Source of the DNA: an uncultured Pelagibacteraceae bacterium
GTDB taxonomy: Bacteria; Pseudomonadota; Alphaproteobacteria; Pelagibacterales; Pelagibacteraceae
Length of the DNA stretch: 64,000 nucleotides
Assembly (NCBI GenBank): GCA_902611465.1
Contig: CACLZS010000001.1
Span: 1-64,000, forward strand
Reading direction: 5' to 3'
Notes under the pieces: generated by a model
Told to the model about the DNA's origin: nothing
What the model saw: only the letters and a program-made list of their open reading frames with translations
The model's database searches: none
Shown here: piece by piece, positions 4,925-48,615 of the stretch
How positions within the stretch are numbered: position 1 is the first letter of the stretch
Layout of the letters: each line of letters begins with the position of its first letter
Made by a program: the position numbers and the translations under genes

Positions 4925-6454
4925 ATGAACCTCATTAAGTCAACAAGCACATTTAGTCTATTTGTTTTGCTTAGTAGGGTTCTAGGTTACGTAAGAGACT
5001 TTTTTATAGCAATATATCTTGGTTCAGGACCTTTAGCAGATGCCTTTTTTGTAGCTTTTAGAATTCCAAATACTTTTAGAAGATTATTTTCAGAGGGAAC
5101 TTTTAATGCTGCATTTGTTCCATCTTATTCTTCAGAACTTCTTAAAGGAAAAAAAAAAGCAAACACATTTGCAAATACGATTTTTAATTTATTGTTGTTG
5201 GGGTTGTTCTTTACAATCCTAATAATTGAAATATTTATGCCAGCATTTATTAAAATAATTGCACCAGGTTTTTCAAATGACCCACAAAAATTAAATATCG
5301 CAATTGATTTAACTAGAATAACATTTCCATTCTTATTTTTTATTAGCCTTGGATCATTTTTTTCAGCAATTTTAAACTCTCATAATAAATTTGCAGCAGC
5401 AGCTGCAGCGCCAATTATTCTTAATATAATGTTAATAATTTGTCTGTCATATGCTGAAAATTTAAATGACAATTTGGTTTATTACTTATCATATGTAGTC
5501 ACTTTTGCTGGCCTTATTCAATTTATTTTTTTATTAATATTTGTTAAAAAATATTTTGTAATAAACATAAATTTTAATTTAAAAATAAATAAGAAAGTCA
5601 AAAACTTTTTTAGTAAACTTTTACCAAGCATATTTTCATCAGGTGTAACCCAAATAAATATCTTAGTCGGAACAATTATTGCTTCATTTCAAGCAAGCGC
5701 TGTTTCATATTTGTATTATGCTGATAGAATTTATCAAATAAATTTAGCAATTGCTGGTATTGCAATAGGTACAGTAATACTCCCAAACCTTAGTCGACAT
5801 ATTAAAAGCAATAACTCGTTAAAAACGAGAGAACTACAAAATAAAGCTTTAGAATTGAGTTTATTTTTAAGTTTACCGGCATCACTTGCTCTAATCGTTG
5901 GTTCAGAGCAAATAACATCTGCTTTATTTGGATATGGTTCTTTCGACAAGGTAAGTGTTAGTAATTCTGCAAAAGCTTTATTTTATTTTTCTTTTGGGCT
6001 GCCAGCATTTTCTTTGATCAAAATATTTTCAACCTTTTTATTTGCAAGAAATGATACTAAAACACCATTTAAATATTCTTTGATTTCTGTAATTTTAAAT
6101 ATCATAATTAGTCTGATGTTTTTTTCAAAGGTTGGATTTATTATAATACCAATCGCAACTACAATCTCCTCATGGTTTAATGGAATTATCTTATTAATTT
6201 TCGTAATTAATAAAAATTACTTTAAATTTAGTTCAAATTTTATTATTCAAATATCAAAAATTATTTTCTCAAATATAATTGCAATTTTCATATTTTATTT
6301 TTTGATAAATCTTTTAGAAAGCTCATTAGTTTATGTAAATAATTATAAATTTATTTTTATTGTTTTAATTGTTTTATCAACTTTTGTTTCATACATTGGA
6401 ATTTCAATTATTATAAAAACCTTTAAAATTTCAGATATTAATTTAAAGTATTAA
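4925..6454 (+). CDS. murJ: Lipid II flippase MurJ (MviN)
   Basis: Polytopic 509 aa; STFSLFVLLSRVLGYVRDFFIA, DAFFVAFRIPNTFRRLFSEGTFNAAFVP. Confidence 0.95.
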   Translation: MNLIKSTSTFSLFVLLSRVLGYVRDFFIAIYLGSGPLADAFFVAFRIPNTFRRLFSEGTFNAAFVPSYSSELLKGKKKANTFANTIFNLLLLGLFFTILIIEIFMPAFIKIIAPGFSNDPQKLNIAIDLTRITFPFLFFISLGSFFSAILNSHNKFAAAAAAPIILNIMLIICLSYAENLNDNLVYYLSYVVTFAGLIQFIFLLIFVKKYFVININFNLKINKKVKNFFSKLLPSIFSSGVTQINILVGTIIASFQASAVSYLYYADRIYQINLAIAGIAIGTVILPNLSRHIKSNNSLKTRELQNKALELSLFLSLPASLALIVGSEQITSALFGYGSFDKVSVSNSAKALFYFSFGLPAFSLIKIFSTFLFARNDTKTPFKYSLISVILNIIISLMFFSKVGFIIIPIATTISSWFNGIILLIFVINKNYFKFSSNFIIQISKIIFSNIIAIFIFYFLINLLESSLVYVNNYKFIFIVLIVLSTFVSYIGISIIIKTFKISDINLKY

Positions 6455-45753: not shown

Positions 45754-47454
45754 ATGAGTACAAAAAATATTAATAATTTAGTTGAGCTGTTTTTTATTAA
45801 TTACAAAAAACAAAAAAAGGATAATGTTCTTTTAACATCCTTAAAAGACACTAATAATTGTTTTACATGGGAAAAAACATTCCATTCAATTAAAAAACTT
45901 TCTTCAGAAATTAAAAAATATGCAAATAAAGGTGATAGATGTTTATTAATTTCTGAAAATAGACCTGAGTGGTTTATAACAGATCTTTCTGTTATGTTAT
46001 CAGAATGTATTACTGTACCAGCTTATACAACTTATGCTGAGAAAGACTATGAATATATAATTGAAAATTGTAATCCAAAATTAATATTTGTTTCAAATCA
46101 AGAACAATTCAACAAAGTAAAAGATATTATAAAAAAAAAGATTTTTATTGCTAAAATTTTTTCTTTTGAAGAATTAGATATAAGTGAGAATGAATATCTA
46201 AACATTAATAAATTATTTTCTAATTTAGACTATCAAGATTTAAATGTGCCAGACTTATCAATTAAAAGAAATGATCCAGCTTGTATTATTTACACTTCAG
46301 GAACACAAGGTAACCCAAAAGGTGTAATCTTAAGTCATGGTGGGATTCTAAATAATTGTGATGGTGCACTCGATATATTGAAACCTTTGCTAACAGATCA
46401 GACTAGATTTTTAACCTGGTTGCCTCTCTCACATTCCTATGAACACACTGTTCAATTTGTTCAAATAAGTGTTGGAGCAAAAATATTCTATGCAGAAAGC
46501 ATTGAAAAATTAATTAAAAATATGAATGATTGTAAACCTCAACTAATGACTGCAGTACCTAGGTTTTACCAAAATCTTTTTCAAAAAATCAATGTAAGTT
46601 TCAATAAAGCAGTAGGTTTAAAGAAAAAACTAATATTAAAGATGTTAGAACTAGGAACCAAAAAAATTAATAAACAATCTTTAACAATTTTAGAAAAATT
46701 AATTGATAATATTTTGGAAAAAATAGTAAGAAAAAAAATTAAAAGTCAATTTGGAGGTGAGCTTAAAACTTTCGTTTCAGGCGGTGGAGCTCTTGATAAA
46801 GAAGTTGGTATTTTCTTAAATGCTATAGGACTTCCTACTCTGCAAGGTTATGGCTTAACTGAAACCTCTCCAGTTGTAAGTTGTAATCCAATTGATGATA
46901 TTAGGGTAGAGACTGTAGGACCACCATTTAATGGCAATGAGGTAAAAATAGCCTCAGATGGTGAAATTTTAGTAAAAGGCGAAAATGTAATGTTGGGTTA
47001 TTGGAATAATGAGGAAGAAACTAACAAAGTTTTAAAAGATGGTTGGTTACATACAGGAGATATTGGAATTTTTGAGAATGGTTATTTAAAAATTACTGAC
47101 AGAAAAAAAGATATTTTGATTACTCCCGGTGGAGATAATATTTCTCCAGTCAAAATAGAAAATGAATTATCAAATTCGAAATTTATTGATCAATCAATCG
47201 TTTATGGAGATAATAAACCGTATTTAGTCGCATTATTAGTTCTATCTGATGAAAATATAAATGCAACACAGGATCAAATTAAAAAAGAATTAGAAATTAT
47301 AAATAAAAATCTTTCTAAAATAGAAAATATAAAAAAATTTTTTATAATTAATGAAAAATTTTCAATTGAAAATGGAATGTTAACTCCAACTTTAAAACTA
47401 AAAAGATATAAAATAATTCAAAAATATAAAAACGAATTTGAAAAACTTTATTAA
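45754..47454 (+). CDS. AMP-dependent long-chain acyl-CoA synthetase family protein
   Basis: IIYTSGTQGNPKGVILSHGG, LQGYGLTETSPVVSCNP, DGWLHTGDIG. Confidence 0.92.
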   Translation: MSTKNINNLVELFFINYKKQKKDNVLLTSLKDTNNCFTWEKTFHSIKKLSSEIKKYANKGDRCLLISENRPEWFITDLSVMLSECITVPAYTTYAEKDYEYIIENCNPKLIFVSNQEQFNKVKDIIKKKIFIAKIFSFEELDISENEYLNINKLFSNLDYQDLNVPDLSIKRNDPACIIYTSGTQGNPKGVILSHGGILNNCDGALDILKPLLTDQTRFLTWLPLSHSYEHTVQFVQISVGAKIFYAESIEKLIKNMNDCKPQLMTAVPRFYQNLFQKINVSFNKAVGLKKKLILKMLELGTKKINKQSLTILEKLIDNILEKIVRKKIKSQFGGELKTFVSGGGALDKEVGIFLNAIGLPTLQGYGLTETSPVVSCNPIDDIRVETVGPPFNGNEVKIASDGEILVKGENVMLGYWNNEEETNKVLKDGWLHTGDIGIFENGYLKITDRKKDILITPGGDNISPVKIENELSNSKFIDQSIVYGDNKPYLVALLVLSDENINATQDQIKKELEIINKNLSKIENIKKFFIINEKFSIENGMLTPTLKLKRYKIIQKYKNEFEKLY

Positions 47455-47564: not shown

Positions 47565-47593
47565 TTGACATAACTATTCAAAAAAAATAAAAA
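47565..47593 (+). promoter_or_regulatory. Candidate promoter for the 27-aa basic peptide gene
   Basis: TTGACA - 17 nt - TAAAAA (weak -10). Confidence 0.4.
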
Positions 47594-47643
47594 TTAGTTA
47601 TTAACGAATCATAAAGATTCGTTTATAAAAAAGGGAGCTAAAG

Positions 47644-47727
47644 ATGGCTAAAAGAAGAAAAAAAGCTGCTAAAAAGAAAACTAAGAAAAAAGCTAAGAAA
47701 AAAGCTAAGAAGAAAAAAAGAAGATAG
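47644..47727 (+). CDS. 27-aa Lys/Arg/Ala-only-type basic peptide, histone-tail-like; not in supplied ORF track
   Basis: ATG...TAG encodes MAKRRKKAAKKKTKKKAKKKAKKKKRR; RBS-like AAGGGAG upstream; followed by terminator. Confidence 0.75.
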   Translation: MAKRRKKAAKKKTKKKAKKKAKKKKRR

Positions 47728-47749
47728 TTTAGTATTCTTTTTAATTGAT

Positions 47750-47789
47750 AACGCTTCTCATGGCGCTTGCGTGGGGAGCGTTTTTTTTT
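47750..47789 (+). terminator. Rho-independent terminator between convergent basic peptide gene and carD-like gene
   Basis: AACGCTTCTCATG-GCGCTTG-CGTGGGGAGCGTT followed by T9. Confidence 0.85.
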
Positions 47790-48615
47790 ACTCTGTAATT
47801 TCTTGATTTAGTGGTTTTTCAGCAACTGGTTTTTCCTCAATTTTTTGTGCCTGTTTTTCTAAATTTCTTTTTAAAGCTTTATCAAGCTTTTTTTGAGCGT
47901 CCTCTAAACTTGAACCCATTACAATCTGAAATTCTGTTAATAATCTCTCATAAGCTTTTTCAAATAATTGTCTTTCACTGTAGGATTGATCAATCATAAT
48001 ATCATCTCCTTTATTCAGATCTCTCACTACCTCAGCTAACTCATAAATTTTACCTGAAGATATTTTCGCTTCATATTCCTGAGCTCTCCGACTCCACATT
48101 GATCGTTTAATTTTTGGTTTACTTTTTAAGATACTTACACATTTATTTATCTGATTAATTGTAGCTAGTGGTCTTAAATGAGATTGTTTGTTTACTGGAA
48201 CCATCCCATTTGCTTTATCTTTTTCAAATTTAAGAATATATGTTTCAACATCAATACCACCAATATTAATTTTTTTTGTTTCTGTAATTTGACCTACACC
48301 ATGTTTTGGATAAACAACATAATCTTTAATCTTAAATAGTCTTTTTTCAGTATCTTGTTTTTTTACCTTTTTAATTTCAGGTTTTTGCTCATTATTTTTA
48401 GGAATTCTTAGTGGATCATTTTTTGTTTCAATTTTATCTTTTTTTTTTGGTTCTTTGATTACTTTCTTTTTACTTACTTCTTTAATTACTTTTTTAACTT
48501 TAGCTACTTTGGAAATTTTTTTTGGTTTAGTTACTTTTTTTATAGTCTTAGTTTTTTTCGAAACTTTTTTTTTTATTTTTTTGTTATTCAAGATTTTCTT
48601 TAAAATATTTTTCAT
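47788..48615 (-). CDS. CarD family transcriptional regulator with Lys-rich N-terminal extension
   Basis: [50 protein letters not shown] CarD N-domain; ~91 residues of Lys-rich sequence precede it. Confidence 0.9.

Follow-up and report, generated by a model that had tools for sequence, protein, structure and literature searches.

A gene for a 27-residue, lysine- and arginine-rich peptide, which faces carD in an uncultured Pelagibacteraceae bacterium, is conserved and protein-coding, and purifying selection acts on the encoded protein. As judged from its sequence and those of its relatives, the peptide is the short form of an order-wide family of stand-alone proteins resembling the C-terminal tail of histone H1, and it probably counts, despite its very small size, among the tail-like proteins that bacteria use to condense their DNA. 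The features discussed here lie in one window, namely the whole 64,000-nucleotide stretch that was analysed:

45754..47454, + strand: acyl-CoA synthetase gene (AMP-binding, PF00501), upstream and co-directional, outside the peptide transcription unit
47565..47570, + strand: -35 element TTGACA of the peptide promoter
47588..47594, + strand: probable -10 element of weak consensus, either TAAAAA (spacing 17) or AAAAAT (spacing 18), the exact hexamer being uncertain
47603..47623, + strand: predicted 5'-terminal mRNA hairpin, 8 bp with a loop of 5
47606..47610, no strand: GAATC, a GANTC (CcrM-type) site within an invariant CGAATC box
47616..47620, no strand: GATTC, a second GANTC on the opposite arm of the hairpin, which does vary
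47631..47637, + strand: Shine-Dalgarno sequence AAGGGAG
47644..47727, + strand: gene for the 27-aa Lys/Arg-rich, H1-tail-like peptide
47750..47790, + strand: intrinsic terminator, a stem-loop at 47750-47782 followed by a U-tract
47788..48615, - strand: carD (PF02559 and PF21095), convergent conserved neighbour

Translation of 47644-47727 on the + strand gave MAKRRKKAAKKKTKKKAKKKAKKKKRR followed by a TAG stop. The residue types are exclusively M, A, T, K and R, as a preliminary description of this DNA had read them, whereas its value of about 80% for lysine plus arginine was too high: 20 of the 27 residues (74%) are K or R, and the remainder are Ala, Thr and Met. Among ORFs of 20-100 aa, this one is alone in the window in reaching a K+R content of at least 60%, and 15 windows of 64 kb, simulated with a Markov model of matching nearest-neighbour composition, contained zero ORFs with K+R of at least 70%. 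These simulations, together with the synonymous excess described below, ruled out a chance reading frame in poly-A sequence. Pfam, NCBIfam and PDB yielded zero matches to any length form of the family. Prodigal accepts genes from 90 nt upwards, and the ORF, at 84 nt, falls below this minimum; it is plausible that gene callers skip the gene through such length cut-offs. Very short basic genes of this kind escape annotation, trypsin-based proteomics and assemblies that are broken inside them. Two assembly contigs (G004:C11 and G222:C16) were observed to end within the peptide gene, and the locus may escape detection in draft genomes because of such breaks.

A search of relatives with 201 bases of the DNA recovered the locus in nearly 30 genomes of the same genus. 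An in-frame Lys/Arg ORF followed AGGGAGCTAAAG-ATG, which is almost invariant within the genus, in 28 of the 30 fetched loci; of the two others, the L008 sequence opens within the gene, where its contig starts, and L030 proved to be another gene, one with a Lys-rich C-terminal tail. Public genomes were scanned with a pattern that joined the Shine-Dalgarno region to the first six codons, and at least 120 contigs matched, the matches listed being Pelagibacteraceae or Pelagibacterales. No viral copies carried the exact pattern. When three mismatches were allowed, 184 of 297 genomes in a sample of the order matched, including three off-target matches in the sister family f2, and the same-genus subset, counted from the table, gave 175 of 198. 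Eight good same-genus genomes without a match were checked: six also lacked a carD match, one (G222) has a contig ending inside the peptide gene, and one (G193) has a contig ending within the carD match. Most absences thus look like assembly gaps.

Selection on the reading frame was assessed by counting substitutions on minimum spanning trees that joined variants of equal length, with the expectation taken from random placement of the same changes. As a result, 88 of 150 substitutions were synonymous compared with 46.4 +/- 5.0 expected and a maximum of 61 in 500 random placements, a large effect even though the uncertainty of aligning different lengths is left out of account in the trees. Changes at codon positions 1, 2 and 3 numbered 15, 44 and 91. 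The check that the preliminary description had proposed, conservation and synonymous bias across the carD region of SAR11, therefore came out in favour of the gene, with ORF, start and stop kept. Codon use departed from that of the genome (AAG 0.28 vs 0.13; GCT 0.75 vs 0.40). This bias was rejected as a sign of high expression, since the GCT preference is not common to ribosomal genes, in which GCT makes up 0.375 of alanine codons compared with 0.85 in the peptide. The longest A-run was 7.1, shorter than the 10.1 expected from background usage or the 8.9 expected from the gene's own usage, as would be the case if the peptide is translated. Because ribosomal genes lack the GCT preference, avoidance of slippery A-runs is the simpler account of the departure, and such avoidance matters only if the sequence is accurately transcribed and translated.

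Elsewhere in the order, where CarD was used to find the locus, every lineage tried had a Lys-rich ORF facing carD. The family ranges from 20 to 91 aa and changes in whole codons: most Pelagibacter forms have 20-30 aa, genera g8 to g10 have 21-24 aa, g6 has 31 aa, g5 has 36-38 aa, g7 has 34-58 aa with AAKKPA-type repeats, and f2 has 76-91 aa, starting with MEELKVIFAKARKKAKKKAAPKK and continuing with AAPKK repeats. A GTG start is used by one member of g6, G293, whose apparent lack of the gene was thereby overturned. In f1, residues outside K/R/A/T/P/S/G/V are nearly absent. The f2 forms open with M-E-E/D-L, so that their N-terminus, and no other part, holds one or two acidic residues; their stretch AKARKKAKKKAA is similar to the f1 start AKRRKKAAKKKT. 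Orthology between f1 and f2 was judged by position, control elements and composition, not by alignment score. This whole-codon length series at one locus marks the 27-aa peptide as a short form of the family. A class-wide protein search with one f2 form, run without a positive control, gave zero returns.

The gene had been described as looking like an expressed one, with a good Shine-Dalgarno sequence, a candidate promoter, a 5' hairpin and a dedicated terminator, and these control elements proved to be conserved along with the coding sequence across SAR11. All 172 distinct upstream regions that were long enough to judge, from two families, contained TTGAC[AT], then CGAATC at 39-42 nt, counted from the first base of the -35 element, and then a Shine-Dalgarno motif. 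Transcription would start near 47600, and this constant spacing therefore places the box a few bases past the start. Consensus-only promoter-like matches were no commoner than in shuffled sequence (7 vs 8.5), so that the promoter claim rests on conservation; of the candidate promoter described earlier, the -35 element held up and the -10 remained weak. The terminator (1 found vs 0.2 expected) has an equivalent in every ortholog displayed. The hairpin that had been described is present as well. Its stem cells are 95.6% paired compared with 24-44% when the partner is slid, whereas in the shuffle control for covariation 120-173 of 500 shuffles were equally good; the first arm is invariant, and the hairpin is thus likely, though unproven by covariation. 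In most genera CGAATC forms the left arm and GATTCG, or GATTTG with a G-U pair, the right arm; the stem of g5 to g7 is a different one, lying immediately after the box. An inverted repeat acting as a fixed-spacing DNA operator was disfavoured, because the spacer between the arms varies from 4 to 8 nt and the stem differs in some genera. The hairpin pattern occurs once per genome in most same-genus genomes searched, with one exception lying elsewhere than the locus. More speculatively, the hairpin would shield the short mRNA or tune translation of the peptide.

Resemblance to a stand-alone H1 tail without a globular domain had been proposed from the 27 residues, and the AAKKP/AAPKK repeats of the longer orthologs strengthen it. 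The family shows the low-complexity K, R, A, P and T composition of H1-like proteins and no acidic residues, apart from those at the f2 N-terminus, as well as in-frame, repeat-driven length variation over 20-91 aa. Lys/Ala/Pro tandem repeats are clear in f2 and g7 (AAPKK, KPAAKK), whereas the 27-aa form has only an AKKK-type periodicity and no proline. The closest analogues of the family, chlamydial Hc2 (HctB) and BpH1 of Bordetella, are likewise Lys/Ala-rich and repeat-based, have no globular domain, are expected to bind nucleic acid, and owe their variation in length to in-frame Lys-rich repeats (PMC2848022). However, they measure about 165-237 aa (PMC2848022), belong to another phylum or class and, for Hc2, are bound to the chlamydial developmental cycle; the SAR11 family has no Pfam HC1/HC2 match. 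The C-terminal domains of AlgP and PhaF of Pseudomonas carry KPAA-type Lys/Ala/Pro repeats like those of the longer SAR11 orthologs, and peptides of KPAA repeats bind DNA (PMC9239181). In those proteins the tail follows an N-terminal domain (AlgP has 352 aa), whereas the SAR11 protein consists of nothing but the tail, which in Pelagibacter is nearly without proline and repeats. Eukaryotic H1 C-terminal tails and protamines are similarly disorder-promoting, extremely basic and suited to neutralising DNA charge; the SAR11 peptide differs in being bacterial, 27 aa long and free of a globular domain, and no homology is claimed. Low complexity makes homology to the named H1-like families undecidable by sequence. 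We rate the peptide as belonging with tail-only H1-like proteins, far shorter than the named ones. The open-licence papers searched contained nothing on the gene, and a survey of structured RNAs in SAR11 (Meyer et al. 2009, PMC2704228) does not mention the carD region; it is possible that the gene, especially in its longer forms, is already on record as a hypothetical protein without a name or as a small-ORF catalogue entry.

With moderate confidence, we propose that the gene encodes a stand-alone polycationic peptide, of a minimal histone H1 C-terminal-tail kind, that would bind and condense nucleoid DNA non-specifically. The peptide would be made as a disordered chain with some 20 positively and no negatively charged side chains, and would bind nucleic-acid phosphate without sequence specificity. 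By neutralising charge it would compact the chromosome, working together with HU/IHF, in the manner of Hc2 and of the H1 and AlgP/PhaF tails. The freedom of length (20-91 aa) at fixed composition suits a polyelectrolyte more than it does a fixed binding site. The peptide has no Pfam match to the HU/IHF fold (PF00216, about 90 aa), and true HU/IHF genes occur elsewhere in the genome, at 1-3 copies per genome and mostly 2-3, so that the peptide would not be the sole nucleoid protein. SAR11 bacteria are among the ocean's most abundant cell groups and a model of genome minimisation, and a near-universal gene missing from the searched family libraries would extend what is known of their chromosome biology. 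The peptide would be close to the smallest that a nucleoid protein can be, and the forms of 20 to 91 aa at one locus offer a natural series relating the length of a polycationic tail to DNA condensation.

A polycation of any kind binds RNA too, not DNA alone, which counts against a reading specific to DNA, and the main rival is a peptide that binds RNA or the ribosome, such as an accessory ribosomal protein, an RNA chaperone or an rRNA-compacting peptide. We consider it rather unlikely. Tiny Met-Ala-Lys-Arg-rich proteins do exist in bL37, bTHX and eL41, basic ribosomal proteins of 24-26 aa are known, and the SAR11 peptide shares their size and a very basic N-terminus (e.g. MAKRxRKK). Those proteins nevertheless keep a constant length and specific non-basic anchor residues, and the SAR11 family, almost all K/R/A/T/P, does neither; the lack of PDB matches and the differing alanine codon use of ribosomal genes also speak against a ribosomal role, though A-run avoidance may explain the latter. 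For Hc2 itself, binding to RNA in addition to DNA and repression of translation are described (PMC2848022). An organiser of polyphosphate granules is very improbable. Its model is the H1-tail-like AlgP of Pseudomonas aeruginosa, which localises to and spaces polyP granules (PMC9239181), and the genome of the window does have PPK1. PPK1, which was scored without PPK2, is however present in only 4 of 21 genomes and absent from a single-contig genome that bears the peptide gene (G012). The polyanion binding suggested earlier is thus disfavoured, in its polyphosphate sense, as a general role, and a polyphosphate-only role likewise, because most genomes checked lack PPK1. It is no more probable that a small regulatory RNA is the conserved unit and the reading frame incidental. 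A predicted short transcript with hairpin and terminator would suit such an RNA, and the complete unit has a better predicted fold than its shuffled versions (z -3.6), whereas the synonymous excess, the whole-codon length changes, the kept start codon and Shine-Dalgarno sequence, and a frame maintained up to 91 aa point to the protein. Rfam matches all fell below the gathering score, and with this negative result and the coding selection a structured RNA was rejected as the main reading.

The genomic neighbourhood bears on a further rival, a transcription-linked regulator acting for example as a partner of CarD or RNA polymerase. A convergent CarD gene lies nearby in 188 of 192 loci with the peptide gene, across two families; three of the four remaining loci are at locus edges, and the fourth (L127) has an intervening gene. 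The acyl-CoA synthetase gene lies upstream in 168 of the 192. SAR11 CarD itself has a Lys-rich N-terminal tail. We nevertheless regard this rival as improbable: SAR11 gene order is generally conserved, which makes adjacency weak evidence, the two genes are convergent and not co-transcribed, and L127 separates them. Furthermore, none of 30 carD loci from alphaproteobacteria outside the order has such an ORF, and the presence of the peptide gene at this position therefore looks order-specific. As side observations, the L127 gene, in one Pelagibacter, is methyltransferase-like (5536-6210), and the Lys-rich part of SAR11 CarD, about 90 residues with 41% K+R before the CarD domain (48346-48615, - strand, in the window), occurs in L127 as well; no K/R-rich ORF corresponding to it was observed at the 30 other alphaproteobacterial carD loci. 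PPK1 is patchy in SAR11, being found in the window genome (G000:C7 38146-38676) and 3 of 20 relatives.

For the favoured DNA-condensing peptide, the promoter region suggests a possible mode of control. The GANTC site in the CGAATC box is present in all 172 upstream regions, and a second GANTC follows the box in 155 of them, with GATTTG in g8-g10. GANTC is scarcer than expected in the window (99 sites vs 168 by base composition), and the invariant promoter-side site stands out against this depletion. GcrA was found in 18 of 21 genomes, and a CcrM-like methylase (N6_N4_Mtase, N6/N4 type) scored above the cut-off in 18 of 21, the incomplete window genome being among those without. In Caulobacter, GcrA binding depends on GANTC methylation (PMC3667746), and in Pelagibacter GANTC methylation has been measured and tied to the cell cycle (PMC9516812). 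The sequence pattern, an invariant GANTC near the putative transcription start within a clade that has both GcrA and a CcrM-like enzyme, is the one expected of a GcrA/CcrM-controlled gene, and makes cell-cycle control through these proteins plausible, albeit unproven. Such a site would couple peptide expression to the replication cycle, a weaker part of the proposal. More tentative still is the picture of an order-wide, dedicated SAR11 chromatin peptide, streamlined in Pelagibacter to as few as 20-30 residues and with its synthesis timed to replication by the methylation state of the invariant GANTC. Through this site one can ask directly whether the CcrM/GcrA switch is still in use in the reduced cell cycle of SAR11.

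Two minor observations concern sequences around the locus and among the fetched loci. In the predicted fold of 47670-47742, the 3'-UTR stretch UUUAGUAUUCUUUUU pairs with the A/G-rich coding sequence, and a similar stretch, TAGTATTCTTT, follows the stop codon in several relatives. The distinct gene of L030 (421-1743) encodes a 440-aa protein with a secreted-like start that occurs in several Pelagibacter genomes; it includes a stretch that we take to be a FecR-like domain, and its C-terminal tail of about 130 residues is K-rich with ATKKK/APKKK repeats.
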